64,000 nucleotides of DNA, taken from assembly GCA_025403435.1 (NCBI GenBank), contig CM046345.1, positions 744,001-808,000 on the forward strand, given 5' to 3'. This DNA comes from Artocarpus heterophyllus. Its lineage: Eukaryota; Streptophyta; Magnoliopsida; Rosales; Moraceae. The notes beneath the pieces were generated by a model that saw nothing but the letters and a program-made list of their open reading frames with translations, was not told where the DNA came from and made no database searches. The position numbers and the translations under genes are program-made. Positions 2,896 to 56,949 of this stretch are shown one piece after another; within the stretch, counting starts at the first letter, position 1; every line of letters begins with the position of its first letter.

Positions 2896-4869
2896 TGTGA
2901 CACCCGTTATTCTCCTAACGGGTATTGAGGTAATTAAATTAATTTTTAATGTATAAAAAAAATTGCTTCATTTAAATTTATTTTATAATATTTATTTTTA
3001 TCTATTTTTAAATTTTCTAAAATTCTCCTATATTTATTTAGTATGATTACTAAAAAGCCTTAGAACTTCTAATAAATCTCAAAAATGTCATATTGGCATT
3101 ATGTGTGTTAAAGTCTTTAGATGAGACATAAGGATATCTTTTCCAACTACTCTTGACCCTCATTTTCTTTATTTCCTCCGTGACATGCTTCAACATGTCT
3201 CCTCTATAATTGTTTCTATCACTTCTCTTCAAAGACTTCATCTTTTCTTCCTTTCTCTTCCACGGTTCCCACACTCTTCTTCTTATTTCTTTGCTGAAGC
3301 AAAATACTTAGAGAACTTCTTCAAGGCAGCCATAAAAATCAGCCACCATCACCTCCATTTGAGCAAGAATTTCAGTCATACCGAAGTAAAGGAACCTGTT
3401 TTGAAGCCATTTCAAGCTTCCAACTAACCATAATCCGAGGTTAGAATCTTATGAACAAATTTAGTTTTTCATTTATAAATTTTCTTTTATACTAAAGGAT
3501 TATTCAAATTTGCGTTCTTAAACCTAAGTATATGTTTGTTGCTATTTTGGAGCATATGTATGAAGTCTAAGTGTATATGCCCTAGACAGAAAATTTATAT
3601 TGTTAAACTTTATAATACCTCTATGGGCAGTGGTTATTTCTTGAAATTCTAAGATTAAATTAAAATAAATTTTATGAATGTAGTTGTATGTTGTGCTTTA
3701 GTTTTAATTGTCCTTATGCACGCCTTAGGATCAAGGGAGTATGGAGCTAACGTTAACTGATTCCAGGATTAAAAGATTGTTGATAAGCTTGAAAGGTAGG
3801 GATTCTATTACTCATCTTTTGTGAGGTTTTTATAGAATTAAAATTGATTGTTTTGCCGCAATATATATATATCTATGTTGAACTGATATTATATGATTAT
3901 CACATATGAAACTATGACATGGACTCGTCTTGTATTGTACGGCGAGGAACATAATGAATTAACACATGTTATAAATTGAGAAGCATGGTTAGGAAAACTA
4001 ACTCTATTGATAATGATTCAATATAGAGAAATTGTGAGACATGAAGAGGGCGACGGTTACGTCCTTGGGCATGAATACCCTAAAAGGTAAAATAGGGGGA
4101 AGGCGATGACGCTTCCTTGGGTTGAAAGTCCCAAAACACACTGTACAGGAATCGATTTGGTGAGGACTCGGGGCTTGATGTCCCCTCACCGGAACACCCT
4201 TGGAATGTTTATAGGGTGATCAAGTGCGCCCATTTGGGTTTCGATGAGTTGAGTGATACTCAATTTAACATGGATACCTATGAACAATGATGATTGGTAA
4301 TATTTGAATAAATGTGTAATTATGACACTTGGTAATGATTAACTACGGTATCCATAAGATGTGATCATAATAAACCTCATAATCTGGAATATGATGTGAC
4401 TTACTAACCATGCAGATTTTAATGTGGTAATGATAAAAACCTGAAGGTGAGTAATGGCTTTCTCTACTGAGCATAGTGTTGCTCATACCCTTATGTTTAT
4501 ATCTTTTCAGGACTCACTAAGTGTGAGGTGGCTACGAGAAATATAGTTGAGGAAGTGATGTAACTATATTACATTGGGACTGCTTCAATCGTTGAGAATG
4601 TTCTTCATGATAATGTAAGCATCAATTGTTACTTTCTGTGACTGTATTATAATGTGTTGAGGGTTAAAATGATGATGACAACAGTTTATATTATTAAATT
4701 TAAGGTGCTACATTAAAACTGTGGTTTATTTATCGTTTATATTTTTTATTTTTGAGTTGAGAGTTTTCATTTAAGTCCCGGGTAAATTTTATTTTTAAGG
4801 TTTTACTTTTATTATTTATTTTTATTTTATCTCATTAAAAACTGTTAACCCCCATATAGGGGTGTTACA
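2896..4869 (+). repeat. 5' LTR of LOG-carrying element
   Basis: The LTR is bounded by TG and CA and is 1,974 bp long. Every position I compared equals the 3' LTR with a constant offset of 6,163 bp; I found no indel and no substitution. Short open frames inside it (for example 3185-3427) occur in both LTRs and show no protein family. Confidence 0.97.
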
Positions 4870-4876
4870 GAATTTT

Positions 4877-4889
4877 TGGTATCAGAGCC
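4877..4889 (+). other. Primer-binding site, initiator-Met tRNA
   Basis: TGGTATCAGAGCC lies 7 bases after the 5' LTR end. It is the standard complement of the 3' end of plant initiator methionine tRNA, used to prime minus-strand DNA synthesis. The Copia and Ty3 elements in this window use the same priming sequence. Confidence 0.93.
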
Positions 4890-6289
4890 TAGGTTCGGTT
4901 AACCTAGGGAGTGTAGCACCACTTTAAAAAAATATATTTTTGAGATGGTTTTGAAGCTGAATTTTCATTGTCATCATCAAAATGAACCTTCACATTGATT
5001 TATACAGTCTAGAAGGATGTAACATGGAAAGGCCATAGAATGAAAATATCAATAGTTATATGAGTACAATAATTATATAGAAGGAAAGTATTAATAGTTA
5101 TGAGGGAATGATAATTATATGAAATGAGTTTATAAGTAGAATGCTTATGAGAGATTCGTATAATATTAGGATCTATAAGCATATTTAATTCGTATAAACG
5201 ATGAGAAATTCGTATAGATACGAAGATTTAAGAGCCTTTTATCTCGTGAAAAACAATAAGAAATATAAGGCTTGATTTATTGATTTTAAAGTTTGACATA
5301 GATATGCCAAATTTTTCGTAATTGATTCAAACCTAAGTAATGATTATGTGTGGATTCGATGGAGCACATAAGTGTCAATATCTTTTCTTGAAAGTTCTAT
5401 TTATTTGAGGAATATGATATAAGTTGGGAATCATGGTATTGAATTTTGAGAGAGATAAATGTTAGACTTTTGGTCTGTTGAGACTGTGTAAAGTCTAGAA
5501 TGCATGAATCTCAAAATTGGAATATTTTGTTACGTACATTGTATTTAAGTGTATCAGTGAATCTTTTGGTTACCTAAGGTTTTGTTATATGAGGAAATTA
5601 TATATTGTATGAGTAGAATTGTGGGGATTGTAGATGTTCTTAAGTAGTAACATCAAGTGTCTTTGTTCGTTGATATGGTCTACGTTGAAAGACGTAAATC
5701 GTATTGATTTCAAGGTTAGTCACATTCTAAACCCTTGGTAGCAATGATGATGAATCCATTGATAGATGTTGAGTATTAGGAATAACATATGGGTGTATGC
5801 ATTGTTCAATAAGGTTTTGATTAAAACAAAATTATTTGAGTTGCTGGAAGATTATGTTGTTATGAAATGATTTTAAATATCATTCAGGAAGATCCTTGTT
5901 GTCGTTAAATTAGATTTGTTGTTTATAGTTAACTTTATCTATAGTGGGCTTTGAATTGGGTTTAAGATTCATACGAATTGGTTTTCAATTTTATGTTTGT
6001 TATTTAACTCGTTCCAAATGTGTTAAGGCCCGAAACAACCTGACCATTTTCAACTAAGAACATTTGGGCCTAGTTCAAATCTTAAATCAGTTTGATTCAC
6101 ACTGTCTCTCTCACGTGATCTCTATACGTGTCATATACAGTGGTTTAATCATTGTTTACAAATACGTTTACTGTGCATAGGAGCTTATTTCTCCGAGTTT
6201 ACTTTTCCTCTAAAAGAAGAAGGAATTCTAGGATTCTGCAATTTACTATCTTAATTTTTCCTTTCTATTTACTCTTCTTTCATCTCATC
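4890..6289 (+). other. Leader of LOG-carrying element, no ORF
   Basis: About 1.4 kb of AT-rich sequence lies between the PBS and the first ORF. I see no gag-like frame or zinc knuckle. The stretch from about 6000 to 6290 has a more mixed base composition and may be the leader brought in with the first ORF. Confidence 0.6.
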
Positions 6290-6811
6290 ATGGACCCAAA
6301 GTACCAACACCTGAGAAAGTATTTCCCATCACTCTCCCAAAAGATTCTCAGAAAGAAATACAAGGCTAGAATTACTCGGTTGTGGATTCTTATGCGTTTT
6401 GGTATCCCTTGTGATGTGAGAATGTTAATAGAGGGGAAAATCCGTCCGGGTGACTTTAGTCAAGATGTCGGTTTACCAGGAACAGGTACCAGTCGTAGTG
6501 CAATGAAAAGAAGAGCTCGTGCCATCGTGGTCGCTTGTAACAAATGTGGAAGACAAAATTGTAACGGTAAATGTACTTCACCTGGTTATATGTCTACGAA
6601 TAGAGAGGATAAAATAAGGTTTTGTAGGGATGGACTTTCAAAGGAGAACTTGGATAGCATCCATCCTCCTCTCCACGGTCACCCTAGTGGATATGTTCAA
6701 GGAGCTATTTTTAAACTCTGGCCTAAATTTTATACAGAAAGACAACGCCTCAGGAATATGGTATTTCTAGATCCTGTTTGTCAAGCCATAAGAAAACTGG
6801 ATGGGGAATAA
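6290..6811 (+). CDS. Cysteine-rich basic protein, resembles carlavirus-type nucleic-acid-binding protein
   Basis: The ORF encodes 173 aa from an ATG in a strong context (A at -3, G at +4). The frame is open further upstream, but only from a non-ATG codon. Visible features are a GIPCDV segment at residues 38-43, a basic patch KRRARA at 73-78, and right after it a cysteine cluster C-x2-C-x4-C-x3-C at 83-95, then a Pro-Gly and an IRF stretch. That order (GIP segment, Gly/Ser stretch, Arg-rich patch, Cys cluster, PG, IR) is the layout of the small cysteine-rich proteins of carla- and allexi-type plant viruses, which bind nucleic acid and in several cases suppress RNA silencing. The cysteine spacing here is tighter and there is an extra tail of about 50 aa with HPPLHGHP. 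It is not a retroviral CCHC knuckle. The ORF is clearly intact; the family assignment is tentative. Confidence 0.6.
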   Translation: MDPKYQHLRKYFPSLSQKILRKKYKARITRLWILMRFGIPCDVRMLIEGKIRPGDFSQDVGLPGTGTSRSAMKRRARAIVVACNKCGRQNCNGKCTSPGYMSTNREDKIRFCRDGLSKENLDSIHPPLHGHPSGYVQGAIFKLWPKFYTERQRLRNMVFLDPVCQAIRKLDGE

Positions 6812-7453
6812 GTCATCGCTCTATAAAGGTTATTTAGTCTTTACTTATTTGAAGCAGTTTTAGCTGATGTTCAACAGTATGTGTTTTTCTTTTACTCAGA
6901 ATATTTGCTTTTGTGTTTGAAATAATTGTGATTATTAGATTGATACAGTAAGTGTTAATATCTTATTTAATTTATGATTTTCTTAAATATATATATAATA
7001 AAATATATATCTTATCAGACACGTTACATACGGTACAGTAATATGTTTGAATTTTGAAAAGCTTATCCAGATATTTCAAGATTTGTGTCTCAAATTTCAA
7101 AAGTTCTACAGTATTTGTCGTTTATATTAAATTTCTAGACTTGGTGTATATTTGTCAAAAAGTCTACAGTTGTGTCATGAGGGTCTTCTGTCGAATTGTT
7201 CTCAATTGTCAAAAGTTATACAATTAGAGTCTAATCTTTTTCAAAAAGTGAATCAGATTTTCTGTAAACTATCAATCACCTTATCTTACTTTCTTATCCG
7301 CACAAGATTTTGTTTAAATCTTTGGATTACCTTTTCATTACCTACTCGTCTATCTCTTTAGCCCTTTTTGTATATTTCTCATCTTTAAAAACTCATGTAG
7401 AACCCGAAGTCTAAGTGGAGCAGACATTAAGCAACCACTTCTATAAACCAAAT
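6812..7453 (+). other. Spacer between the two ORFs of the element
   Basis: 642 bp of T-rich sequence with a short (TA)n stretch near 6990-7010. No gene is visible. There is no obvious promoter that would settle whether the two ORFs are transcribed together from the LTR or separately. Confidence 0.5.
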
Positions 7454-8104
7454 ATGTCTACCTCCCAGTCCACGAAGAAAATAAAGAATGTCTGTGTCTT
7501 TTGTGGTTCCAGCTTTGGAAAAGATAAAGCTTATTTAGAAGCTGCAAATCACTTAGGGCAAGTCCTAGCACGCAAGAAGATTAACATAATCTATGGGGGT
7601 GGTAGTATAAAAATGATGGTAAATATGGCACTAGCAGCTAGGTCTAGCGACGCTACTGATGTAAGAATTTGGCCTCATATTCCAGTTGAAGGAAACCTTT
7701 GTAAGGAAGCCATAGGTAAGGGAGAAGGAGTCAGGAGTATCCCTAAAAATTTTAAAGACATAATCTATAATTCTGATGCTTTTATAGCATTACCTGGTGG
7801 TCTAGGTACTCTTGAGGAAATATTTATAGTTGCTTGTGGGCAATTGTTGGGCTTTTATTCCAAACCTTTGGGACTGTTGAACGTAAAGGGTTTTTATGAC
7901 GGTCTTTTGAAATTTCTAGATTACGCTGTGGAAGAAAACATCACTACAGAATCGGAGAGACAAATCTTTGTTACTGCTTCAACAGCTGAGGAATTGATAG
8001 ATAAAATGCAAATCATACATCCAGAATCCGACACTGCAACATCCAAGCTTGAATGGGAAAAGGAAAGTCGGGAGCAGCCAATTGATTTGAATCTCCATCT
8101 GTAA
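7454..8104 (+). CDS. LOG-like cytokinin riboside 5'-monophosphate phosphoribohydrolase homologue inside an LTR element
   Basis: The ORF encodes 216 aa, close to the length of plant LONELY GUY proteins, which release active cytokinin base from its nucleotide. ATG at 7454 has A at -3. Family motifs are VFCGSS (15-20), YGGGS (47-51), SDAFIALPGG (107-116) with PGGLGTLEE (114-122, the nucleotide-binding signature with its Glu), and LLNVKGFYD (141-149). The family has no intron here, as expected for a retrotransposed copy. Several usually conserved positions differ: the GLMG stretch after YGGGS reads KMMV, the segment where active LOGs have Arg-Lys reads NFK (99-101), and the IGVIPK-like stretch reads VRIWPH. 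So the fold is likely kept, but activity on the normal substrate is uncertain. The C-terminus ends DLNLHL. Neighbours are the cysteine-rich ORF upstream and the 3' LTR downstream. Confidence 0.9.
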   Translation: MSTSQSTKKIKNVCVFCGSSFGKDKAYLEAANHLGQVLARKKINIIYGGGSIKMMVNMALAARSSDATDVRIWPHIPVEGNLCKEAIGKGEGVRSIPKNFKDIIYNSDAFIALPGGLGTLEEIFIVACGQLLGFYSKPLGLLNVKGFYDGLLKFLDYAVEENITTESERQIFVTASTAEELIDKMQIIHPESDTATSKLEWEKESREQPIDLNLHL

Positions 8105-9044
8105 TCTTTTTGTTTTATCTTTGGCATGTAGGCATGTGTGTCCGTATTTCGTGTGTTACGAATAACCGTTTGCCTTGTATTCTGTGTTTCTTGTGGTACG
8201 TCGTTGTTCAATCTTTTAGATTCATTGAGCCTAATGCCGGGATGGCTGGATACGGAGTACTTGATGCTCTCGAAACGCATCCTTCTTAAGGTCCGATCTT
8301 TTGTTTATCGATGTTTTTGTATTCTATAAGCATGCATGATATGGATAGCTGGTATACGGAGTGCCTTGTACTCTCGAAACGTATCCGTATTATGTTTGTA
8401 ATGTGTAATATTCTGTTAATATTATGTGGAAGTACCAGAGTCAGTTATGGGGATATTCCATATGAAATATGAGTATATTATTTGGATTGAATGTTTGTGT
8501 CATGAGGATAGCTGTTTAATGAAAAATATGTCGGGTATGTTTGCAACCAGAGATTCCGTTTAATATCTCTATGAATAAGTTTAATGTATGGTTTTGAATA
8601 TAAGTGTTTGTGATATATGTTTTATGATTATGTTTTAGTTTATTAGTTGAGGTATGAAATCAAATATATTTGACTTTTCCTTACTCAAAAAGGAAAAGGA
8701 ACCTAAAGATGAAGTATATAAAATTTCTCTGGCAATCTCCTTAAATGTGATTGTAAATCACAGTCCATGGACAATGAAGGACTGGAATCATGGTATGGTC
8801 AATATGTATGCCTGATCAGATTCTTAGACTATTATACGGTGTTATAAGTTGAAACTTGTCAGAAATACTCTCATTGAGGGATTTAGGAGTAAGATTTATT
8901 ATGCAAGTAAATAAGTGGAGATACGATAACTTAACTTTGGAAGATAAACAACATTAACGGTTTAGACTCGGAATTGGAATCATAATGGAATCAAAATTTT
9001 TACTAGTATTGCTAGAATTGAAATTTCGAGGACGAAATTTCTTT
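8105..9044 (+). other. 3' region of LOG-carrying element with an imperfect direct repeat
   Basis: No ORF lies between the LOG-like gene and the PPT. Two imperfect copies of a 50-bp unit occur at about 8240-8290 and 8341-8390. Both contain a GGATGGCTGG/GGATAGCTGG start, a TACGGAGT core and CTCTCGAAACG(C/T)ATCC. Confidence 0.6.
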
Positions 9045-9056
9045 AAGGGGGGTAGA
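9045..9056 (+). other. Polypurine tract
   Basis: AAGGGGGGTAGA lies directly before the 3' LTR start at 9059 and is preceded by TTTCGAGGACGAAATTTC. This is the usual plus-strand priming site of Ty3/gypsy elements. Confidence 0.88.
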
Positions 9057-9058
9057 GC

Positions 9059-11032
9059 TGTGACACCCGTTATTCTCCTAACGGGTATTGAGGTAATTAA
9101 ATTAATTTTTAATGTATAAAAAAAATTGCTTCATTTAAATTTATTTTATAATATTTATTTTTATCTATTTTTAAATTTTCTAAAATTCTCCTATATTTAT
9201 TTAGTATGATTACTAAAAAGCCTTAGAACTTCTAATAAATCTCAAAAATGTCATATTGGCATTATGTGTGTTAAAGTCTTTAGATGAGACATAAGGATAT
9301 CTTTTCCAACTACTCTTGACCCTCATTTTCTTTATTTCCTCCGTGACATGCTTCAACATGTCTCCTCTATAATTGTTTCTATCACTTCTCTTCAAAGACT
9401 TCATCTTTTCTTCCTTTCTCTTCCACGGTTCCCACACTCTTCTTCTTATTTCTTTGCTGAAGCAAAATACTTAGAGAACTTCTTCAAGGCAGCCATAAAA
9501 ATCAGCCACCATCACCTCCATTTGAGCAAGAATTTCAGTCATACCGAAGTAAAGGAACCTGTTTTGAAGCCATTTCAAGCTTCCAACTAACCATAATCCG
9601 AGGTTAGAATCTTATGAACAAATTTAGTTTTTCATTTATAAATTTTCTTTTATACTAAAGGATTATTCAAATTTGCGTTCTTAAACCTAAGTATATGTTT
9701 GTTGCTATTTTGGAGCATATGTATGAAGTCTAAGTGTATATGCCCTAGACAGAAAATTTATATTGTTAAACTTTATAATACCTCTATGGGCAGTGGTTAT
9801 TTCTTGAAATTCTAAGATTAAATTAAAATAAATTTTATGAATGTAGTTGTATGTTGTGCTTTAGTTTTAATTGTCCTTATGCACGCCTTAGGATCAAGGG
9901 AGTATGGAGCTAACGTTAACTGATTCCAGGATTAAAAGATTGTTGATAAGCTTGAAAGGTAGGGATTCTATTACTCATCTTTTGTGAGGTTTTTATAGAA
10001 TTAAAATTGATTGTTTTGCCGCAATATATATATATCTATGTTGAACTGATATTATATGATTATCACATATGAAACTATGACATGGACTCGTCTTGTATTG
10101 TACGGCGAGGAACATAATGAATTAACACATGTTATAAATTGAGAAGCATGGTTAGGAAAACTAACTCTATTGATAATGATTCAATATAGAGAAATTGTGA
10201 GACATGAAGAGGGCGACGGTTACGTCCTTGGGCATGAATACCCTAAAAGGTAAAATAGGGGGAAGGCGATGACGCTTCCTTGGGTTGAAAGTCCCAAAAC
10301 ACACTGTACAGGAATCGATTTGGTGAGGACTCGGGGCTTGATGTCCCCTCACCGGAACACCCTTGGAATGTTTATAGGGTGATCAAGTGCGCCCATTTGG
10401 GTTTCGATGAGTTGAGTGATACTCAATTTAACATGGATACCTATGAACAATGATGATTGGTAATATTTGAATAAATGTGTAATTATGACACTTGGTAATG
10501 ATTAACTACGGTATCCATAAGATGTGATCATAATAAACCTCATAATCTGGAATATGATGTGACTTACTAACCATGCAGATTTTAATGTGGTAATGATAAA
10601 AACCTGAAGGTGAGTAATGGCTTTCTCTACTGAGCATAGTGTTGCTCATACCCTTATGTTTATATCTTTTCAGGACTCACTAAGTGTGAGGTGGCTACGA
10701 GAAATATAGTTGAGGAAGTGATGTAACTATATTACATTGGGACTGCTTCAATCGTTGAGAATGTTCTTCATGATAATGTAAGCATCAATTGTTACTTTCT
10801 GTGACTGTATTATAATGTGTTGAGGGTTAAAATGATGATGACAACAGTTTATATTATTAAATTTAAGGTGCTACATTAAAACTGTGGTTTATTTATCGTT
10901 TATATTTTTTATTTTTGAGTTGAGAGTTTTCATTTAAGTCCCGGGTAAATTTTATTTTTAAGGTTTTACTTTTATTATTTATTTTTATTTTATCTCATTA
11001 AAAACTGTTAACCCCCATATAGGGGTGTTACA
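9059..11032 (+). repeat. 3' LTR of LOG-carrying element
   Basis: Same length (1,974 bp) and, as far as I could compare, the same sequence as the 5' LTR. It is followed at once by the target duplication AGTAC (11033-11037). Confidence 0.97.
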
Positions 11033-11137
11033 AGTACATTGTCTACCTTGATTTTTTTTCTTTTTTGCATATATTTTCTACTTGGATTTGACCATCTAGA
11101 CATCTTTATAGATAACAGACTTGATTTTAACCCATAG

Positions 11138-12580: not shown

Positions 12581-13685
12581 CATAACTTTTTGACAGCTCA
12601 AGGATTATCAGTTAAAAGTTCAAGAATTAAAGCAAGACAACTGATATCAAAATCAAATAATAATAATAATGACAATAATAATTGACAAAAACTAATCATA
12701 TACAAAAGACTTGTTTGGGATAACTTGTACTTTTATTTTTAAGTAGTAGAATAAGAGAAACATAAACTTGAGTTTTTTAATTAATATTTAAATAATACAT
12801 GAATTTGATTAAATAAGTAAAAGTCTTTATTGAAATAAAAAATGATACAATTTAAAAATATAGATGTAGTTTTTAATTTATAATTTTTAAATATAAAATC
12901 AATAATATATATAAAAAAGGCTTTTTATTAGTGTTTTTTTATAAGCACCTAAACAACTTCTCTGACAAGTACTTATAAAAGTATAAAAGTGATAAGTATT
13001 TTTTTCACGGGTCATAAACGAGCCACAAAGCAAATTTTTCATACAATGACGTAAAACAGCTTAAAATAAGTCGGGTCAACATTTACTCGCGATCTCGACC
13101 GTTTACATTGAACTGTTACACGTGGCAGAACAGATAGTGGGTTCCAAAGAATATACCGACTCTACCGAAACGTCCACGGAAGAATGAAATAAAGCAAAAG
13201 ACGGTTTGACTCTACCGGGGACACAGTACGCACCCCTGTTCAAAACCGGGTCCCACATTCAAACACTTTATACCTCTTCCGACATAAGTCGTCATTCCTC
13301 TCGGCCTCCCACGCACTTTGCGTATCCAACTCTCTCTCTTTCTCTCTCTTCTCTTTCTCTCTCCTCTTCAGTAGTTTAACTGCGTTGACTGAGAAGACAT
13401 CCTAAAAACCAAATCCACCTCTTTCTTTCTATCCTTTTTTTTCTTCTCTCTTTCTTCTCCTTTCTTTCCCGAATTTCCAATTATGCCCTCTCCGGCCTCC
13501 CCTATTTGCGCCCTGCACCCTCTACGCCGGCTCCATTTCCCCGCCTCCTCCGGTACCTCTCTTTTCTCTCTCTAGAATCTACAGAAAATTCCACAAACCA
13601 GGCTAGGGTTTTGTTTTTCCTTGCCGTCTAGGTCTGTAAATTTTGAATATTTTGAAAAAAAGAGAAGTTTTTTTTTTTTTGAGAG
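12581..13685. other. Spacer and promoter/5' leader of OBE4
   Basis: AT-rich DNA to about 13080, then a sharp rise in GC and in pyrimidines. A TATA-like TTTATACC lies near 13267-13274. A CT-rich leader follows from about 13330, typical of plant 5' UTRs. CTAGGGTTTT near 13604-13613 is a reversed telobox-type motif often found in leaders of growth-related plant genes. The exact transcription start cannot be read from sequence alone. Confidence 0.4.
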
Positions 13686-16600
13686 ATGAAGAGGCTGAGA
13701 TCGACCGAAGACCTGGATTCGTACGGAAAGGATCCGAATCCGAGTTCGAATCCGAACCGGTCGTCGTTGTCGTCTTCTTCTTCGCACAGAAGCTTTTACT
13801 ACAAGTCTGATAAGTCTGATACAGTACGGAAGGGTTTGGTGTCTCCGTCGTCGGCGGCGGCGGCGACGACGAGTGGTGGTGGAGGTGGTCGGTATGATTG
13901 GGATCGATCGGCGGTGGAGGACGACCGGGAGGGGTCGAGGATGGTGAAGAAGCGATCGGAGAATGATTTCGAGGGTTTTGATCGGAGGAAAGGGTTCGAT
14001 CGGTATAGGGATGACGGCGGCGGTGGTGGGGGAGGAGAGAGTAGAGGGTACGATCGGAGCTTAATGCACCGGTCGGAGAGCTTTTTTGGTCCAAGAAGGG
14101 AGTTTCCGAAGGGGTTTAGGTCGGAGCGGGATCGATCGAGGAGGGAAGGGAGTGTGGTGTTGTCGTGGCGGAGATTCGGCGGCGTGAACAAGGAGTTTGA
14201 TGATGGAGGAGGAGGAGGAGGGAGTAGGAGTAGTAGGTTGATGGAGGAGAGAGGGGATGGGATTAGGGATGTGAGGTCACCGACGTGGTCGAATTCGAGG
14301 GAATCTGGGAGTGAGCAGTCTAGGGTTAGGTCTCCTCCGCCGAGGGGATTGAGGGAAGGGAAATCGATGTCGGTGTCGAAGTCGAAATCGAAGTCCCCGA
14401 CGTGGTCGAAGGACTCGGTGGGGAGCGAACAGTCGAAGTGTGTTGAGGTGAAGAAGGCTAGTGAGGAGGAGGGCGTTCAGGTGGAGAGTGGGAGCAGTAG
14501 TGAAATGGAGGAAGGAGAGCTTGAACCAGAACCGGAACCGAAATCAGAGGCCGGAGGGGAACCCAAATCGGTTTCTGAAGTTGAAGGTGATAAGGAAGAA
14601 GTTCAGGTTCATGGTGGGATGGAGATTGATGATAGGAAAGTTGAGAGCGAGGATATGAATACTGTTGTAAAGGATAAAGATGAGTTACAGAGCAAAGAAG
14701 ATATAGAGGAATGGAATGAGAAGGGTGTTTGTGAAGTTAAAGATGTGGATGAAGAAGTTGATCGAGTGTTAAATCACGAGGGAAATTCGGCCAGTGAAAA
14801 ATTCGGCGGCGGGTCCAATATCGGAACTGAGATCCATAGTGAAGGTGATGAGAGAGAGGAAGAATGTTTGAGGGGTGTTGAGGAGGGAAAGGATGAGACA
14901 GCGCAAGGCCACCAAGTTGAGAAGTCGCTGCAATCTGATGGGGAACCTAGAGAGGACAAGGGTATAGATCTTGAAGTCGAGGCAGAGGGTGTCGAAGAGA
15001 GGGGGATGGATGACAAAAGGACGGAGAATGGGGCGGCTGAAGAAGATATGACAAAGGCAACAGAGAGTTTGGCTCAGAGTTTAAAGGACAAAGGGAAGAG
15101 TGTGGTGGTTTTGCCTACCCATGTTGTGGAATCGGCTGCAGATGATTTTGGCTGGATTGATAGAGAGCCTAGAGATCTCATGACTTGCAGGGAAAGTGAT
15201 GTGGAAATGGAAGGGCCCAGCATCAGAGGGTTTGAGTTGTTTAGTAGCTCTCCTGTTAAAAGACAGGAGAAAGCCAATCAGTCTGGTGCCAACAGTATGC
15301 AGAAGGATGACAAGCTCACGCTCGAACCGCTCGAACTTTCTCTTAGCTTACCCAATGTCTTGTTACCCATTGGTGCAGCTCCCGGTTCCCCTGGCCAAGC
15401 AAGGAGTGTTCAGTCCTTGACTAATACGTTTCAAACCAATTCGGATGGGTTTACGGCATCGGTGTCCTTTTCAGGCTCTCAGTCTTTTTATCACAACCCC
15501 AGCTGCTCTCTGACGCAGAATTCCTTGGACAACTTGGAACAATCAGTTAAAAGTCGTCCCCTTTTTGGGGGGATTGACTGGCAGGCTCTGTCTCAGAATG
15601 AGCCTAAGAATAATAAAGAAGTTCCCTTGTATCAAAGGATTTTGCTGAATGGAAACGGGTCTCAATCTCATCAGCAATCTCAACCGGCATATAATGGTCA
15701 ACCTGCACAAGGGCAGCGTCCCAGGATGCCCGAGGGCGGGAGCTCTAAGATGGTCAATGGTTTGGAAAGGCCGCTCGGCTTCCATAAACAGTTGTCAGGA
15801 GGACACTCAAGGCACCACCATGATGATGTTAGGTCTCCTTCCCATAGTGTTGGGTCTCATGAAATTGGGTCAAGTTATAGTTTTGAGAGGAATAGATTGA
15901 TGAGGGAGAAAAGTAGTGGTAGTTTATACAGGACTAGTAGCTCGAAAATGGACCAAGAACAGTTTCCTTGTGGTGGGGTTGAATTTGTTGAGACAGTCAT
16001 TGGCAGGATAGTATCGGAGCCGATACCATTAATGGCTAGGAAATTTCATGAAATGAATGGACAATCCTTGGTATATTTAAAGGATAGCATCCGGGAGATC
16101 ATGCTGAATGCGGAAAAGCGTCGGCAGATAGGTGCATTACAGAAAGCGCTGGTGAATCGGCCGGACATGACCTTGGAAATGCTTCTGAAATCCCATAGGG
16201 TACAGCTAGAAATTTTGGTTGCTCTCAAGACTGGTTTACCAGATTTTCTTCAGCAAGATATGAGTGTTTCGTCCTCTGATCTAGCTGAGATTTTTCTCAA
16301 CTTAAGGTGCAGAAATCTTGCTTGTCGGAGCCCTGTGCCTGTGGACGAATGTGATTGCAAAGTTTGTTCTCAGAAAAATGGCTTTTGCAGCTCTTGTATG
16401 TGTCTTGTCTGCTCGAAATTCGACATGGCATCGAACACATGTAGTTGGGTTGGTTGCGATGTTTGTCTTCATTGGTGCCATGCTGATTGCGCGCTGCGGG
16501 AATCTTATATTAGAAATGGACGTAGTGCCACTGGGTCACAAGGAACATCTGAGATGCAATTTCATTGTGTTGCCTGTGATCACCCTTCTGAGATGTTTGG

Positions 16601-18266
16601 CTTCGTGAAGGAGGTTTTTCAAAATTTTGCAAAAGAGTGGACGGCTGAAACTCTTTCCAAGGAACTCCAATATGTCAAAAGAATCTTCGCCGCGAGCAAG
16701 GACTTGAGAGGGAGACGGCTTCAAGAGATTGCTGGTCAAATGTTGGCAAGATTGACGAATAAGTCTGAGCTTCCCGACGTTTACAGTCACATCATGGCCT
16801 TCCTGAATGGTAAAGAATTTATTTTCTTGATCAAGAAATCTACTTTTTGTTGCTTAATGAAAAGATCATTTGTATTTACATGTAAGACGGGAGGATAGCA
16901 GACTAAGTAGTAGTAGTGGTAGTTGTTGTTGTTGTTTCTTTTCTTTCTTTTTTGAAAACAAGTTAAAAAATTCCTGTATATCGAGTGATTGACTTGTCTT
17001 TTCTCCCAGTTTGGATCTTAAGTATATTCATTTTGATACATTGGACACTTTATTATTTATTTCTTTTAATTTGTGAGGATATTTGTTAAGGAAAACAGTC
17101 AGACATTCTGCAAAATAACTATTAAACCTACTCGTCTTCCAGTTGATTTGGAAAATCTCCCCTTTTGCGAAGTTTCTTGGCTTGGAAAATAAGCATGAAA
17201 AAAAGTTATATCATTTATCTATCTGATCTAGGCAGCAAATATAATTGCTTCGTTGAAAAGTTATAGTTTTAAAGTTAAGCATAAGAAATTGCAATCTGTT
17301 TGCGACTTTCCATTTGTGCATGAGATTGTGTTTGTTTATGCGTGTGTTTATAGAAATTATTTTGTCTAATTTGTTTCCATATTTGTTTGGGTATATAGAA
17401 GCAAAAGTTGCATCTTCTTTTCTTATTTTGTTCCATGTATTACACTTGTTGCTTTTCTAGGCCCGTTGAGGATTTTAGACTTTATATCAATCTTTTAGTG
17501 GTGCTGGAAATTGGTGAACTTCTGAATATGCATCTATTGGCAGCTCTGCAAGTGCTTGGTGTTTAAAGAGATAGCTTAGCTTTGCAGGATATTTTGCATC
17601 ACGCGTGATTTTTCATTGATACCTACTTGGTACAGTCCTTCCCAAACGCAATTTCTATTTAACATGGAAGTTGAATTATGAGATTGTTATACTTTGATTG
17701 CAGATAGCGATTCCTTCAAGGTGAGCAGTACCCCTCTTACATCTGGAAAGGAACAAAGTAAAGTGAGCAATGGGATTGCCGGGCCGAGCCAAGAGCCCTC
17801 GTGGCTAAAGACTGCTTATTCGGATAAGATCCCTCAATTGGAAATACCCGCTAGTTTACTTCCTAGCTATAGCTATGACAGGAATGATAAACGCATTGTG
17901 GACTTGGAGTTGCAGACAAGCAGTGCTCTGAAGGAACCTCTTTTTGATGAGTTGGAGAGCATTGTGAAAATTAAACTAGCAGAGGCTAACATGTTCCAGG
18001 CACGGGCTGATGATGCGAGAAGAGAGGCCGAGGGGCTGCAGCGTATAGCCATGGCAAAGAACGAAAAGATTGAGGAAGAGTACATGAGTAGAATCGCAAA
18101 GTTGCACTTGGACGAGTCTGAGCAATTGCGTAAACAGAAGCTTGAAGAACTGCAGGCCATAGAACGAACGCATCTCGAGTACTTCAACATGAAGATGAGA
18201 ATGGAAGCAGAAATTAAAGATCTTTTAGTGAAAATGGAAGCTACAAAGCGGAACCTTGCTGCGTAA
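13686..18266 (+). CDS. OBE4: OBERON4/TITANIA-type PHD-finger protein (two coding exons)
   Basis: The coding exons are 13686-16809 and 17704-18266, joined in phase 1 by a GT-AG intron of 894 bp (donor GTAAAG, acceptor TTGCAG). The product is 1,228 aa. The N-terminus MKRLRSTEDLDSYG is the hallmark of OBE3/OBE4 (TITANIA) proteins. Residues 1-480 are highly charged (RS, E, K and Gly runs, poly-Ser), followed by a Ser/Asn/Gln-rich linker. A conserved helical segment precedes a Cys/His-rich PHD-like domain at about 875-965 (CRNLAC, CDCKVC, CSSCMCLVC, HWCHADC, HCVAC). The C-terminal 110 residues form a coiled coil. OBE proteins are nuclear chromatin readers needed for root and shoot meristem establishment together with auxin-response factors. 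If the intron were retained, the frame would end at 16898 after 1,070 aa and lose the coiled coil. Confidence 0.93.
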
Positions 18267-23696: not shown

Positions 23697-26600
23697 TCAC
23701 CTCCCCAGAATTATGTTTTCAATGTGAGAAATCTTATCCCAATCTGCACCTGTCTCGCGTTGGCATCGTTGCAGCAGCGTGGGACAATCATCAATCTCCA
23801 GCGTTTTCATTTTTTCAAGATTGCTTATTTCTACAGGAAGTGACTTCAGATTAGGACATAACAAGATGGCGAGCTTTTCAAGGGACTTGAGATCCCCGAC
23901 CCAGTTCGGAATGGAACCAATGCTGCAACGAGAAATCCCGAGCTCTCGTAGATCAGTGGCATGTCGAAACAGCTCGAACATTTCTTCTAGCTCCATAATG
24001 AAATCCAATCTCAGAACACGTAGTCTTTCCAGTTTGCCCCATTTGTAAAACTCAGCGGCCTCATCTTTCTTAAAATCTCGAATGCCAATAAGACTCAGGT
24101 TCATCAACGGAAGATTACCTCCCTCTCCTTTGCTCTTTATTGTCTCTTTAAAAGGGACCCAGCTAGTTGTGTCCAGCATGAGATCTTTTATATTTGGGAA
24201 AAGTGGCATGATACGAAGTTTGGGACAATCCTGGATGGATAGTCTAGAAAGGCAAAATAATGAAGGAAAATCTTTGTCATCATAACTGAAGTCTCCATTT
24301 AATTTCCTCCATCCTTCAAGCTGAGGCAACTCTGTGAGTTGGAGCTCTTGAAGCTGCGGAAAAAATGGTTTGCCTGTTGCGGGGTTTTCCACCGAGTCGA
24401 TGCACTTCAAATTAGGCATCTCATCTAGTATCAAAACTTTAATTGAAGGAAAGTGGTCCAATCGCTCTAGATATTCGCACTTCAGACATTTTCGCAACAC
24501 CAGCTTAACCAGATTCCTTTGTAGGTTGAGCCAAGATGATAACTTGCTACCGCCATAACCATGTAAAGCCAATCCTTTGAGATCCAAGTGTGGCTTCAGA
24601 TCTTCCAGTTGTTTTTCATACTCAGATTCCTTTACTCCTGATTGATCTATATCCCAATCAAGCACCAACACTTGAAGATCTTGTTTTTCTCCCAAAGCTG
24701 CAGCCTTGACATCTTTCCCGGGTGTCAAATTCTTAATTTGAAGCTCCCCCCTTAACTTGTTTAGCTTTTCTAGTTCGTTTAGCCCGCCAGTCTTCCCATA
24801 CTCAGAGCTAGAGTCCTTGACATCATTGTTCGCTACAAACTGAGGCAAGACAAGAAGATTTGTCAGCTGACCAAACCAACGAGGCATGGGAGCCAAGTTA
24901 TAGCACCCGTCGATCTCAAGACTTCTGAGATTGATCAGATTCTTAATGTCCGAGGGCAACTCTTCAAGTTCAATGCAATGGGAGAGCTTCAGTGTTTGCA
25001 AATACTCAAGTTTGGTGATAGTAGCAGGTAGGGCCTTGATATATGCATTTCTTGAAAGATCAAGGTATCTCAGATGCATCAATTTTCCAATGTCAGAATG
25101 TACGACCTTAATCCCCAAATCATGCAGATCCAATGCGCGTAACATCCGAAACTCCGAAATGATTACATCACTGACAGGTCCTGGTCTCCATTCCCATGTA
25201 GATTGAGAATTGGTGATATGCAAAATCTTTTCTGGATCAATCATTCCTTGTTCATATTTTGACAGTGGTTGACGAGGCAAAAGAATCGACTGAATTACCC
25301 ATGAGCAACGTTTCATCCTTCGGGGAATTTGTCGCGGCGAATGTATATGAAAATCAAATGACACGTGACGAGTTATGCTATTATCAAAATTATAATTTCT
25401 ATCACTTGAACGCAATAAGATGCATCTCACTCCCCCTAATATGATCAAAAGATTGTACCCTCTACAATCTATTTTGCATTTTGTCACAGAACCGTTCAAA
25501 ATATGATCTGATTCATCATGATGAACTTCTTCGAAAAAGCCTTCCTTTAGTAAACCCTCAAAATACTGCAGACCTACATCCTCTAGACATTGGCTTGAAT
25601 CATCTGATAATTTAATAAATCCTTGTGCTATCCAAAGATTTATTAAAGTTGGCACATCAATCTCATAATCTTGTGGAAATAATCTACAGTACTCAAAACA
25701 ATGTTTCAAATGCAAAGGAAGCTTAATATAACTTTGAAAGAGTGAACGATCAATTTCAATTTCATCTAACTGATCGTCTTTGTGATTACTCCTCTCAGAA
25801 ATCCATCTATCCCAAAAATCTTCTGTATAATTGAACTGCAATATATCTACTATTGTGTTTATGGCAGTTACCTTCGAGGCCCTATCATCATTTTCGGAGA
25901 TTGCAGATGCCAACCATTTTGAGACGACATGCTTGGCAGTTCTTGTTTCTTCACAGAATTCATCAATGAATTGATCTTTATCAAACTGATCTGAAGAAGA
26001 ATCCCAGTGAAATGGGGGCTTGGTACCCATTTTCTCGGCCGCCTCTTCATCACTTTTAAAGATAATTACTTTACTGCCACTTTGACCGCCGCTTGACAAT
26101 TCTTTTAAGCAGCGCCAATATTCTTCATCTTCCACACTTCTCAAGTCTTCTAGTACAACCAAGAACCTTTTCCCTGCTATTATTTTTTTCAGAAGATCCT
26201 TCAGTTCGTCGCTCAAAAATGATAATTCTGAGTAATATTCACCAAATCTGTCCATTGTCACATGAACTAGTCTCCTGCCACAGAGTTCATTTACACGAAC
26301 CCATGTTATTGATTCGAACTTCTGTTGAACGCGTCGTCGTTCGCCGTATATGAATCGAGCAAGTGTAGTTTTTACAATTCCTAGCTTGCTGATTATAGGA
26401 ATGACTGAGACATTACAATCATTTTCTTCACAGAAAACTATATTCATGATCTCAGATTTCTCTCTAGAGCTCAACACAGACGTTTCTTCCACTTCTAAAA
26501 TTGCGTCGTTGACATCATTTACAAACCGCTGAATATATTTGGGAAGAATTAAAGTAGGCTGCTTTTGGAAGAAGATGCTGCGAAGAATATTGCATAGCTT

Positions 26601-26888
26601 GACGGCCTGCTTTCTCCGCTGAAATCTTTTAGAAGAAAACTCATCCAACTCTTCTTCAAGACGATGCATCCTCCATCCAAGAGACCAATAAGGGCCAGAG
26701 ATGTATGACAGGTTAGTCGACATGTTCTCCTCTTTACTGATGAACCAAGATTTGATGGTGGACATCCTGTCAACGAGTTGCCCAAGCTCATCATGAACAC
26801 GAGCGTCAGCGGTTGGATCAACCATAGCTAATTCCGAGCGCAACCTCTCAAGGATCCGATCGGCAAAACTCACCAAGTTTCCAGACAT
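23697..26888 (-). CDS. CC-NB-LRR (NLR) protein with eroded nucleotide-binding motifs
   Basis: One open frame of 1,063 aa, intronless as in many CNLs. A coiled-coil N-terminus (about 1-120, with LEEELDEF at 77-84) is followed by a degenerate NB-ARC (about 145-430) and LRRs (about 575-1040). In the P-loop position the protein reads ISKLGIVKTTLARF (166-179): the TTLA end is kept, but the glycines and the GK pair of GxGGxGKTT are gone. The Walker-B/kinase-2 region reads KRFLVVLEDLRS (240-251), with the first Asp of DD changed to Glu. GLPLA is not recognisable, and the MHD position reads KID (472-474). RNBS-D (HCFEYCRLFPQDYE, 396-409) is intact. NLRs sense pathogen effectors and switch by ADP/ATP exchange; this one probably cannot bind nucleotide normally. 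It could act as a helper-dependent or decoy form, or be an early pseudogene with its frame still open. Confidence 0.85.
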   Translation of the reverse strand: MSGNLVSFADRILERLRSELAMVDPTADARVHDELGQLVDRMSTIKSWFISKEENMSTNLSYISGPYWSLGWRMHRLEEELDEFSSKRFQRRKQAVKLCNILRSIFFQKQPTLILPKYIQRFVNDVNDAILEVEETSVLSSREKSEIMNIVFCEENDCNVSVIPIISKLGIVKTTLARFIYGERRRVQQKFESITWVRVNELCGRRLVHVTMDRFGEYYSELSFLSDELKDLLKKIIAGKRFLVVLEDLRSVEDEEYWRCLKELSSGGQSGSKVIIFKSDEEAAEKMGTKPPFHWDSSSDQFDKDQFIDEFCEETRTAKHVVSKWLASAISENDDRASKVTAINTIVDILQFNYTEDFWDRWISERSNHKDDQLDEIEIDRSLFQSYIKLPLHLKHCFEYCRLFPQDYEIDVPTLINLWIAQGFIKLSDDSSQCLEDVGLQYFEGLLKEGFFEEVHHDESDHILNGSVTKCKIDCRGYNLLIILGGVRCILLRSSDRNYNFDNSITRHVSFDFHIHSPRQIPRRMKRCSWVIQSILLPRQPLSKYEQGMIDPEKILHITNSQSTWEWRPGPVSDVIISEFRMLRALDLHDLGIKVVHSDIGKLMHLRYLDLSRNAYIKALPATITKLEYLQTLKLSHCIELEELPSDIKNLINLRSLEIDGCYNLAPMPRWFGQLTNLLVLPQFVANNDVKDSSSEYGKTGGLNELEKLNKLRGELQIKNLTPGKDVKAAALGEKQDLQVLVLDWDIDQSGVKESEYEKQLEDLKPHLDLKGLALHGYGGSKLSSWLNLQRNLVKLVLRKCLKCEYLERLDHFPSIKVLILDEMPNLKCIDSVENPATGKPFFPQLQELQLTELPQLEGWRKLNGDFSYDDKDFPSLFCLSRLSIQDCPKLRIMPLFPNIKDLMLDTTSWVPFKETIKSKGEGGNLPLMNLSLIGIRDFKKDEAAEFYKWGKLERLRVLRLDFIMELEEMFELFRHATDLRELGISRCSIGSIPNWVGDLKSLEKLAILLCPNLKSLPVEISNLEKMKTLEIDDCPTLLQRCQRETGADWDKISHIENIILGR

Positions 26889-28257
26889 GATTGGATTGAA
26901 TTGAATTGATAGATCTAAAAGTTTTCAGGAGAAGAGTTAATTGATTTTGTGCAAAGAGATCGAAGAAAAAATAATAATAATCTTGAGTTATATGTAATCA
27001 AGGCATACTAAAATGAGTTCGTGCATTTCCTTTCGCACAATAGCTTGGCCTATAAGGCAGAACTAATTGATTAAACAGATAAATTCATGCATAGCCCTCG
27101 ATTCTTTTCTCTCTCTAGAATTAGCCTATGTAGTCAATTTTACTTTATAACTTAAAAAATGACTCATAAATGATATCTTTGTTAAGTTACTTTTGTTTTA
27201 TAAAGAGTTCTTAAACTTAAAAACTGTCTCATGAATAATATCTTTGTTAAGTTTCAGAGGGAAAAAAGTTAATTTTGTCTTATAAATGATCTCTAAATTA
27301 TCTTTTCTTTCTATAAATAGTCCATATGTTAAAATTCGCACTACAGTTGGTCCCTAAATTAAAAAAAAATATGACAAACTTTGTAATATTGTTAAATAAA
27401 GATGTAAAAAACATTAAATATATGAAGTCGTACTAGATGTATAGTCCCTAAACTAAAAAAAAGTAATTCTATTTATACTTATTAAACTTATAAATAACCG
27501 CAAATAAAAATATTATTTTTTATTTTTAATTATAATACATAAAACAATATTACAAAATAATTGGGAGATACACTTTGGCGTAATGTGAATCGGATGTGAA
27601 GTTTAACTGCTTTTACTCTTTTTTTAGGAAACTTTTATTCTTTTTAGTTTGGTATTAAAAGATTTCAAAACAAATGGGTAAGGTGATTGCGAGTATTGTC
27701 TTTTAGGTAGAATGTATTGGGTTTGAACGTGTTATTTTCTTTAAAAAAGTTTTTTAAGTAAATTTGTTTGTAATTTTGATTATTTACTGAGAAAATAAAA
27801 ACAAAAGTAATAGATTTGTAGGAATGTAAAAGGGGTTAAAAGGGGTATAATACGAAAGACATTTATAAATTTTTAAACATTATTATGTAAAATAAAAATA
27901 ATTTGGGGCATTTATTAATATGGTTGTGGTAAAATACGGTCCTTTCAAAAAATTTTCAAAGTTACGCTTAAAATAAATAAATAAATAATGTCAAATATGG
28001 ATAGCGAAAGAATTAATTTTGTTATTTTTCTAGTGTAGAAACTACCCATGTGGTACAACTTCACATATTTAACATTTTTTTATATACTTATTTAACAATA
28101 CAACTAATTTTGACATGTTATTTTTAATTTAAGAACTAAATATAAGGACCATTTATAGAGAAAAAAGACAGTTCATGACCCATTTGTACACTTGTTGAGT
28201 TTTTAGAATATTTAGAGGACAAAATTCACCACAGGGACCCATTCTTGAATTTATCCC
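26889..28257. other. NLR upstream region with local repeats
   Basis: AT-rich. Imperfect repeats of a unit of about 75 bp around 27150-27300 share ATGATATCTTTGTTAAGTT or ATAATATCTTTGTTAAGTT. Presumably it includes the NLR promoter, but no element can be assigned with confidence. Confidence 0.4.
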
Positions 28258-36743: not shown

Positions 36744-39700
36744 CTAGTCCTCAGTCTCATCAAAGTCAGAATCATCAAAACCCTTCTCACTTTCAGAGTC
36801 ACTCACCACATACCTTGTCTGCTTCCGGTTAGCCCTCTGAGGCCTTGCTCTCGGAGCAGCAGGAACTTCAACTACTTCATCAACACTCTCCGATGTCGAA
36901 GGAGAAGAAGCTGACTTCTCTTCACTTGTCGTTGTTGCCTCATCATCTATATCCTTAGTAACAGCCCTTCCCAACATAGAACCACTCTTCTTGTTAAACG
37001 GCGAAGCCCTCATTTTCCTCACCTTCTTCTCTGGCGAAATCCCGGAATTCTCAGCAGGCTTTAGCATATCAGTCAAGAGCTTCTGCCCCAACAAATGAGG
37101 CTCTTTGCTGGCCGCGCCTCTCCTCTTTGCCGCTGCTGCCGGGGCCTTTGATGTTGCTTTTGTATTTGCAGCAGGCTTTCTTCCTGCCTTCTGTGCAGCT
37201 CCCTTTGCGGGCGCGGCAGGTTCCAGCTCAAAGTCCTCGTCATCGTCTATCTCATCATCATCATCATCATCTTCAAGATCAACAGTTTCCTTGACAGTTG
37301 CCAAGGTTTTCTTCTGTGCAGCGGCCCTTTTGCTAGGTGCCTTCTTTGGGACCGGAACCTGTGGGGCTTCAGTCTCCATTTCTGTGAGAGAGACAGTCAG
37401 TCAGAACCCCTCCTCAATAAAGCAACAAACAGAATGTCTCAATAAACAAAATTTCTTATCACAAATTTAAGTCTCTGCAAATTTGCAATATTTTCTATTT
37501 ATACATGTGGAGTAATGATATGATGAAGAATTTTTTGGGACATGTATCAAACTCAAAGTCAAGAAAATATGGACCTGATGATTTGTCAGGAGATGACTCA
37601 AGATTGTAGGCAGCAAGTCGATCTTTCAGCTCAAGTACTTCGTCGTCGTCGTCTTCGACAACTACCTGCTTCTAAAAAGAGAAAGGAAAAAAAAAAAAAG
37701 GAAAAGAAAAGGCACTGAGTAATCCCACCCTTTTTTTGGGAATGAAGAGGGAATGTAAGAACTAGACAGACCTTGGAAGCAGCTTTCTTTGGACCAGCTC
37801 TGCCTTTTGGGTTTGCAGCTTCTGGGGCTTTCTCTGAAAAGCGGTAGCATTTCATACTAAGTAAATAGAGAACAATACGCACATATACAATACAAAAGCA
37901 AGCATTTTTAGCTTCCCAGGCTTACCGATTTCCATTGCTGTATCAAAGGTTTGAGTAATTTCTGCAACAGCTTCTGCAGTAGTGGTCTTCTTAGTATACT
38001 TGCGTGGAACTTTCGCTGCAGGTCTAGAAACTTTAGAAACAGCTAGGTTCTTAACTTGGCTTTTCGATTTCCTTCTTGCCTCCTCTGCTTGTGCATCACT
38101 TTTGTCTAGCTCCTGAAACGAATTCAAAACATCAGACACAGCATGGTGGGAAATGAAGTAAATGAAAGAGAGTCAATGATTAACGATTCGTTACATCTAG
38201 CGCAGCCTCAAGAGCATCGAGATCTTTGACCCACAATGACTTTGGCGTTGCTTTTCTCAGTTCGTCAACCTCATTGTTGAGCTTATCCCTTTCTGCACAT
38301 AGTGCTTGGACCTTCTCAAGGGTCAATGTTCCAATTGCCATGGAGAGAAGGTACTCATAATCACCAATTCGAGCTTCAGTGCTGTTAGCCTCAACGTTTG
38401 AGTTCTCCTCTGTATCTTCGGTATCCTCAGTTGCCCCAGCCACCTCTGGCTCAACAGATTTAGTTTTCTTGGGGAAAGGAGTGAAACCTTTCCGTTGCAA
38501 CTCAGCAAACAGATCAGCTCTCTTTCTATTGCTCACAATGATCTCTCCCTTAATCACCCCAAGGATAAACCGAACCTTGTTTTCCAACTTCAACAACTCC
38601 AATTCTAGATTATCCAGTAGTACTTTCTGCATGCATCATCAAAAGCTTTCATTTGTATCTGTAACCTATTGAAAAAATGACTGAAACGTAAAAGACCTGT
38701 CATATACAAATGTCAAGATAATGATAAACTCACCTTTCTCTTTTCATAAAATTCAAGTCTTAGATGATAAAATTCCTCAAGAACTGCTCGAGGGTGCAAA
38801 CAAATTAAATTAGTATGGCAACATGAAAAGAGAGTATTAATTTTGTCGACACATGAAGATGGCCCACATACTTTGTTCCGGAGTGTCATATTTCTTTATC
38901 ACGCCGTTTGAATCAAATAAGTGCATGTTACTTGTGCTTATTGAAGTGGTCAGTTTAAATTTTTTGTGTAGGCCCTCTTGCTTGGCCGCCATCAAGGTCT
39001 CCTCTGCCATGTGGACAAGGATATCTACAGTACTGTGATCACTGTGCTGTGTGAAGCCCTGCAGCCAGCAAAATGTTAATGAGAAAGTAGAGCTCTCTTT
39101 TAAGACATTTGGGCAGATAGCATTATTGTCAAGGACTTGAGGTCAATTTACCTCGACAAAAGGATCCTTGGCTTTGTCATTCCCGAAAGAAATTGATTCA
39201 AGGAATTCCTTGTAATCTTGAGTCCACCTACGGATTGGAAGCTCAGTTATCCTGACTGTTGTCTCATTGACTTCTTCTATAATACCACTAACAATATAGC
39301 TAGCATCCTTTGTTGTCTTCTCTATTGTTCCTTTAAATCCTCGGTACCATGGAATCATTGGTACCATTTCATCGCCATCTAGCAAGAGCCTCACATTTGC
39401 AACAATATCTCTTGGGTTATAATTAGGGATGTAGGAGCTCCAACCAGTTCCAATACCCTCACTGCCATTGACAAGAACCGTTGGAATGATTGGGACATAC
39501 CTATACGTTCATCAAAAAATGATTTGTCAAAATTTGCCGAGCCTCTCCTTACTCATGTAATTATTAATCGTACATAAGAAAAGAAAATACCAGTTTGGTT
39601 CAATGGATTGCCCATCCTCGTTCAAGAAGTCAAGAAGGAGGTCATCATCCTTCGGGAAAAGGGACCTTGTGATAGGAGAAAGGCAAGTATATATGTAACG

Positions 39701-56944: not shown

Positions 56945-56949
56945 GGCTT

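Follow-up and report, generated by a model that had tools for sequence, protein, structure and literature searches.

Amongst plant retrotransposons with long terminal repeats (LTRs), large retrotransposon derivatives (LARDs) have interiors that are held to be non-coding, and TR-GAG elements retain gag. Additional open reading frames (ORFs) in plant LTR elements are well known, as one account sets out (PMC7264820), and one systematic survey set a minimum of 250 codons for the extra ORFs that it predicted (PMC6317226). Closest to the present subject is a study that reports LOG (YgdH) domains in Ty3/gypsy elements, in Citrus and, when the filter was relaxed, in Populus as well (PMC9289625, citing Steinbauerova et al. 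2011). Here we describe an element at positions 2896–11032 of a 64,000-nucleotide stretch of the Artocarpus heterophyllus genome (assembly GCA_025403435.1, contig CM046345.1, positions 744,001 to 808,000; below, the window). It holds two genes, one (ORF1) encoding a protein like the nucleic-acid-binding proteins (NABPs) of plant viruses, the other (ORF2) a LOG-like protein with a degenerate active site. Our preferred reading is that it is probably a recent copy of a non-autonomous Ty3/gypsy-type LTR family of some thousands of copies, a satellite that is moved in trans and keeps the two ORFs as accessory genes.

The family shares with LARDs and TR-GAG elements complete LTRs, a primer binding site (PBS), a polypurine tract (PPT), the lack of pol and a high copy number; unlike them, it has kept two non-gag genes. 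With the elements of Citrus and Populus it has in common a LOG-family domain inside a plant Ty3/gypsy element. Those consensuses were built around reverse transcriptase, whereas in the window family there is no gag-pol that we could find, and an NABP-like gene accompanies a LOG gene with a degenerate site; the sections of PMC9289625 at hand mention neither an NABP gene nor an LxLxL tail such as that of ORF2. The original prediction had supposed cargo of this kind to be undescribed. That has to be given up for LOG domains in gypsy elements, which are in print (PMC9289625), and stands for NABP genes in plant LTR elements and for the pair of NABP and LOG, of which no report was found in a search that covered mostly titles and the openings of abstracts and few subscription journals, so that absence from print is unproven. 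Both ORFs are under 250 codons, and therefore neither could have been listed in the survey of PMC6317226, given its threshold.

All the hallmarks of an intact LTR retrotransposon (LTRs, PBS, PPT and a target site duplication, TSD) are present, with the LTRs, PBS, PPT and ORFs in the forward orientation. The 5′ LTR (2896–4869, 1,974 bp, TGTGACACCC...GGGGTGTTACA) and the 3′ LTR (9059–11032) have the ends TG..CA and show zero differences over 1,974 bp, and AGTAC stands on both sides as the TSD (2891–2895 and 11033–11037). The PBS, TGGTATCAGAGC (4877–4888), lies seven further bases past the end of the 5′ LTR; it is putatively of the initiator-Met type. The PPT, AAGGGGGGTAGAG (9045–9057, including AAGGGGGG at 9045–9052), is found directly before the 3′ LTR in the context TTCGAGGACGAA. 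ORF1 (6290–6811, 173 amino acids) and ORF2 (7454–8104, 216 amino acids) are the only sense ORFs of at least 100 amino acids between the LTRs that start with ATG. They are preceded by an AT-rich leader of 1.4 kb (4870–6289) with the PBS at its start, in which there are 37 ATGs and the longest ATG-started frame is of 35 codons. Intact LTRs, PBS, PPT and TSD around two complete, non-retroviral ORFs had been read from the window beforehand, and this is confirmed. The absence of any difference between the LTRs gives a 95% upper bound on the insertion age of approximately 58,000–108,000 years, with substitution rates that we take to be 1.3e-8 and 7e-9.

It is as good as certain that the element is one copy of a young and very large family. 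Short tags were counted in the whole host genome (G000; 985,004,640 bases in 334 contigs, the window being C19:744001-808000), with at most two mismatches allowed, and the reversed control tags gave 0 each. The ORF1 tag occurs at 3,035 places (1,467 + 1,568), the ORF2 tag at 2,893 (1,390 + 1,503) and a tag for the junction of LTR and PBS at 3,831 (1,848 + 1,983). Were every ORF2 tag a full 8.2-kb copy, the family would make up 2.4% of the genome, an upper figure for tagged copies. On C1, among the exact matches listed, an ORF1 tag lies 1,005–1,016 bp upstream, in the same orientation, of 54 of 58 ORF2 tags, and an ORF2 tag lies downstream of 54 of 59 ORF1 tags. Downstream of the 75 junctions on C1, ORF1 is found in 54 cases, ORF2 in 53, both in 50 and neither in 18. 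A one-off capture of genes was considered and rejected, the cargo being present at approximately 2,900–3,000 places in the genome.

Individual copies bear this out. Twenty were taken from the plus-strand part of the list of ORF1 matches, and were thus chosen by ORF1 similarity; in all 20, ORF1 is followed by ORF2. Both ends of the element could be placed in 17, of which 14 have perfect 5-bp TSDs, all different, and three are without. The LTR pairs of the copies are 99.3–99.96% identical (one copy has a cut 3′ LTR and was compared over 620 bp). ORF1 is intact in 20/20, as the basis of the choice dictates, and ORF2 in 16/20. When the choice was made by ORF2 instead, 18 of 20 copies have an intact ORF1, the others being one with an indel and one in which the match is without its first 21 bases; in 20 short loci from the search with ORF1, the window included and six of them also among the first 20 copies, ORF2 is intact in 19. 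Searches of the genome gave 5,823 candidates for ORF1, of which the best 150 are all 99–100% identical, of full length and without stops, and 6,113 for ORF2, of which the best 150 are all without stops; as both lists are ranked by similarity, they indicate that there are many intact copies, and not the fraction that is intact. The arrangement of two ORFs is not due to chance, because the same order recurs at thousands of places in the host genome and most of those examined are intact. Thus, the proposal in the original prediction of a cargo-bearing family without gag-pol is borne out by the searches with the ORFs and the junction: there are many insertions with distinct TSDs that carry both ORFs, and the interior is neither unique to this insertion nor decayed in all other copies. 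For most junctions on C1 it does not hold that the LTR family normally has gag-pol and no cargo; the remaining junctions may include members with gag-pol. An extra stretch of approximately 380 bp is present near LTR position 780 in the 3′ LTR of five of the 20 copies (L046, L056, L057, L062 and L063) and, on the copies compared, two LTR subfamilies carry the same cargo. An antisense frame of 119 amino acids (7921–8280, minus strand) lies over the end of ORF2; it is open in 13 of the 20 copies and is probably a by-product of the conservation of ORF2.

The gene set of an autonomous Ty3/gypsy element (gag, protease, reverse transcriptase, RNase H and integrase) was not found. Four gag-pol pieces of a chromovirus that lies in the same window matched nothing significantly in the element, the leader (4870–6289) included (lowest E 2.4), and on these grounds a remnant of gag-pol in the interior was rejected. 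Within the 20 copies, no interior has an ATG-started ORF of at least 100 amino acids besides ORF1, ORF2 (whole or shortened) and the antisense frame. A partner that bears gag-pol would supply the proteins for packaging, reverse transcription and integration of the element's RNA, and we consider such mobilisation in trans to be very likely. The chromovirus (54019–64000) has LTRs that are 92.8% identical, a gag-pol split across several frames and a chromodomain, the last at 25.2 bits against a cut-off of 25.1; we take the lineage used for the comparison to be Tekay/Del. The PPT context of the element resembles that of the chromovirus, TTCGAGGAyGAA..TAAGG being common to both, whereas the LTRs of the two are not similar. 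Fragments of a copia-type gag and pol are located just before the chromovirus, at 53074–54112. Elsewhere in the genome, G000:C7:4423018-4433211 has a pair of LTRs that are 99% like the window LTR and an interior of 6.2 kb as against approximately 4.2 kb. That size would fit gag-pol, making the locus a candidate for a partner or for a nested copy. Three of the C1 junctions without either ORF tag lie near C1:19.01–19.04 Mb, approximately 7 kb from a neighbouring junction.

ORF1 encodes a basic, putative zinc-finger protein of the PF01623/PF05515 family. Against the Pfam model Viral_NABP it gives E 0.013 and 15.9 bits (cut-off 23). A search with the single sequence found 15 relatives and a profile search found 856 at E≤0.1, of which the best 120 all carry PF01623; in a set of 16 family sequences, 14 match PF01623 and 13 match PF05515 at E≤0.1. 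Named sources among the matches listed are Populus, Xanthoceras, Acer, Hibiscus, Rhamnella and Orobanche. As would suit mobile elements, the relatives fall into clusters, with as many as 566 sequences in one cluster. ORF1 has the layout of the viral NABPs, that is, a basic run (KRRAR, residues 73–77; 6506–6520) and then a four-cysteine finger, CX2CX4CX3C (Cys 83, 86, 91 and 95; 6536–6574); the run is found in 106, and the finger with the same spacing in 105, of 127 aligned rows of the family. Amongst these rows, in which relatives from other sources have 43–61% identity, 63 positions are conserved at 90% or more. A structure model built from 99 sequences (mean pLDDT 78.5) was compared with predicted viral structures; an earlier model from 16 sequences (pLDDT 52) was too poor for use. 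Heading the 31 matches are three proteins of Betaflexiviridae: from cherry mottle leaf virus (Trichovirus), the 15-kDa protein (probability 1.00, E 0.039); from potato virus H (Carlavirus), the RNA silencing suppressor (E 1.2); and from Arracacha virus V (Vitivirus), a putative NABP (E 2.2). Eight matches to solved structures (PDB), all at E >4, were discarded, and an NCBIfam dehydrogenase match (E 0.00066; 19 bits, where the cut-off is 430) was taken as chance. No DNA of ORF1 relatives was found in viral contigs.

A relative that passes the cut-off stands next to pol. In DAIEQH010000041.1, an integrase ORF (104–1594; rve 2.4e-16) is followed approximately 200 bp downstream by an intact NABP-like ORF (1799–2347) that scores 34.2 bits against Viral_NABP (PF05515; cut-off 23); the gene thus follows pol in at least one element that bears pol. 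The contig is a plant-like Ty3/gypsy fragment binned in a metagenome-assembled genome of Candidatus Nomurabacteria, apparently as contamination, and its pol may be of the Athila lineage. When a query from this contig was run against the host genome, the best 150 of 5,265 candidates were matches of only 51–52%, many of them known places of the window family and two with an extra stop. On the strength of the 856 relatives from one search, the ORF1 family may be a widespread accessory gene of retroelements. An NABP-like protein (P0149) and a LOG-type protein (P0068) from other sources both have 8,723 bases as the length of their longest contig; this coincidence may mean that a second species has such a pair too.

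Thus, the virus-like, cysteine-rich gene of the original prediction can now be named more specifically, as a relative of the betaflexivirus NABPs, from the profile relatives, the cut-off passed in DAIEQH010000041.1 and the weak fold matches. ORF1 shares with the NABPs of carla-, tricho- and vitiviruses the basic run, the four-cysteine finger, the profile match of its relatives and the weak match in fold; it differs in that it resides in an LTR retrotransposon and has 173 amino acids, whereas the three viral matches are proteins of RNA viruses with 97–135 amino acids. We infer that they share a common descent, with a transfer that could have run either way between virus and element. Suppression of silencing is the usual role of viral cysteine-rich proteins, and in carla- and vitiviruses, among others, these combine a zinc finger with a nuclear localisation signal rich in arginine (PMC11213338). 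By analogy, ORF1 would bind RNA or DNA and weaken RNA silencing or alter transcription; that it is a nucleic-acid-binding zinc-finger protein related to the betaflexivirus NABPs, and acts as they do, we put at even chances. ORF1 could alternatively be a packaging factor, akin to nucleocapsid, that binds the RNA of the element for the particles of a partner and suppresses no silencing. The basic run and compact finger, retained in most of the 127 rows, would suit this role; the layout of such a finger is close to that of retroviral zinc knuckles. We nevertheless think it rather improbable, because ORF1 is kin to virus NABPs, because the NABP-like ORF of DAIEQH010000041.1 comes after integrase and not after gag, and because viral proteins of this kind usually suppress silencing (PMC11213338).

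ORF2 is homologous to LOG proteins: it matches Lysine_decarbox (PF03641) at E 9e-22 and the structure 2a33 of Arabidopsis At2g37210 at E 2.7e-43, and contains the motif PGGxGTxxE as PGGLGTLEE. For the LOG of Corynebacterium, Arg99 and Glu122 have been proposed as the catalytic pair, and Met96, His97, Lys100, Glu125 and Trp129 are given as the prenyl site (PMC4979012). At the corresponding positions, ORF2 has Ile96, Pro97, Asn99, Phe100, Ile125 and Gly129, and the GLMG loop of LOG is KMMV; none of the proposed catalytic Arg, the adenine-site Lys or the prenyl-site Met, His, Glu and Trp is therefore present in ORF2. The reading that ORF2 is nonetheless a working LOG, releasing cytokinin wherever the element is transcribed, draws on the retention of PGGLGTLEE, of both glutamates (Glu121 and Glu122) and of the Gly and Thr of the phosphate loop, and on a match to the subfamily model TIGR00730 above its cut-off. 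The replaced residues and loop speak against it, as do a score of 85.6 with the NCBI LOG equivalog model, for which the cut-off is 300, and the stem of 1.42 changes per site on which the ORF2 pair stands in a 47-row tree. We regard an active hormone gene as very unlikely, and a LOG-fold protein that has lost cytokinin synthesis as highly probable. The original prediction of an intact LOG homologue is therefore right as to an open, LOG-homologous frame and wrong as to the active site; the suggestion that the family may spread a hormone-related gene loses its footing, since the replacement of the proposed catalytic Arg and of all five named prenyl-site residues makes a spreading cytokinin gene unlikely.

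Some of these losses are general amongst the nearest relatives of ORF2. In an alignment of 121 rows, made up of the window and the best 120 of 3,907 hits, few rows retain Lys100 (16), Glu125 (15) or His97 (32); Arg99 is kept in 112 and Trp129 in 116, and it is because most rows keep both that their joint loss marks the window ORF2 and its 99% copy. ORF2 ends in an LxLxL, EAR-like motif (LNLHL, 8087–8101), and this tail is found in 88 of the 121 rows. Where the Arg-Lys pair is lost, 86 of 105 rows are tailed; where it is kept, 14 of 16 are untailed, an association that is inflated by kinship between rows, some of which are without their ends. All 31 tailed rows of the 47-row tree stand on one side of the branch from five canonical LOGs, 11 ungrouped rows not being counted. 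By this alignment and tree, there is a clade of LOG proteins that carries the EAR-like tail and has lost cytokinin-site residues, and the window copy is among the most altered. From the motif we infer that ORF2 may recruit a TOPLESS-type corepressor: the tail would allow the LOG dimer to bring in such proteins and so change host transcription, a step that we propose only tentatively. A search of viral contigs with the single ORF2 sequence gave nothing; its profile gave 19 loci, where the matches are short or else weak (at most 62% over 29 residues, or 25% over 150) and which we read as viral LOG-like genes.

Evidence that the two ORFs are of use to the element comes from the variants amongst copies, which were divided into those shared by at least two copies and those seen in a single copy, with a neutral ratio of silent to replacing changes of about 1:3.6–3.7. 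The test for ORF2 used 34 intact rows (29 ORF1-chosen copies, four ORF2-chosen and the window), that for ORF1 19 frame-keeping rows (18 ORF2-chosen copies and the window). Among shared variants, silent and replacing changes number 11 and 13 in ORF2 (P 0.007 against 1:3.6) and 11 and 7 in ORF1 (P 0.0003). Single-copy variants are near neutral in ORF2 (9 to 28, P 0.41) and nearer neutral in ORF1 (8 to 13, P 0.06). Purifying selection on the lineage that transposes, followed by drift in each copy once inserted, would produce such a pattern. The result is moderate evidence, because the shared variants are non-independent events and rows with a stop or indel are dropped. A pN/pS of 0.05 for ORF1 from copies mostly ranked by ORF1 similarity was left unused, that choice being biased. 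The rival possibility is pure hitchhiking, in which good LTRs, PBS and packaging signals amplify the family and the ORFs are passengers, intact through youth: LTR pairs of 99.3–99.96% identity leave little time for ORFs to decay, and the near-neutral single-copy variants of ORF2 are as it would predict. The bias towards silent changes in the shared variants of both ORFs, and the 63 positions that ORF1 relatives keep at 43–61% identity, do not suit it, and we judge it unlikely. An accessory function, by which the two ORFs are kept because they aid the RNA or the proliferation of the element, seems the likelier account.

What that function might be is less certain. Our best single guess is a counter-defence role for the pair. 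There is a precedent in VANC of VANDAL21, an anti-silencing protein of a plant DNA transposon; the role proposed for the window ORFs would likewise be element-encoded counter-defence, by way of an RNA-mediated element and of proteins that are not known to be related to VANC. It is also conceivable, if improbable, that there is a two-part system, in which gag-pol elements do the copying and the high-copy family supplies in trans a silencing suppressor of viral type and a LOG-derived recruiter of corepressors.

Several points weigh against the preferred reading of a satellite with two accessory genes. No gag-pol partner was found, and the contents of the 18 of 75 C1 junctions that are without ORF tags have not been read. 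ORF1 by itself falls under the Pfam cut-offs (15.9 against 23 bits), the E-values of its viral fold matches are weak, with none of the 31 under 0.001, and it departs from its relatives at 10 of the 63 positions conserved at 90% or more, and is thus a diverged member of its family. It also sits behind 37 ATGs in the leader alone, which leaves its translation unexplained. The LxLxL tail of ORF2 may be a leftover of its clade. Finally, the rows of the silent-change tests were picked by protein similarity, mostly of the other ORF, and leave out those with stops or indels, while the shared variants they compare do not arise independently.

The window contains other recognisable features. There is a frame for an OBERON-type PHD protein at 13683–16898 (plus strand), a long frame for a resistance gene of the NLR type at 23697–26924 (minus strand) and a similar-looking NLR-type sequence at 46113–48958 (plus strand) that is broken into several frames. 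A gene at 36744–43705 (minus strand), with an ATPase domain at 43097–43705, is presumably topoisomerase II-like. A bacterial promoter scan, inapplicable to plant DNA, gave results at chance.

It has long been asked how plant retrotransposons outrun silencing, both by RNA and at the level of chromatin. The family described here makes the question directly testable, since it was found to hold two genes only: one for a relative of a protein family of RNA viruses to which silencing suppressors belong, the other for a host enzyme that has been remodelled and bears a corepressor-type motif. Both are under apparent constraint, judging from the variants, in a family of young copies. If the two-part system were true, the satellite would serve its helper and not merely rob it, with one family of counter-defence genes common to plant LTR elements and RNA viruses. 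On this evidence, some mobile elements may carry with them the means to handle their host.

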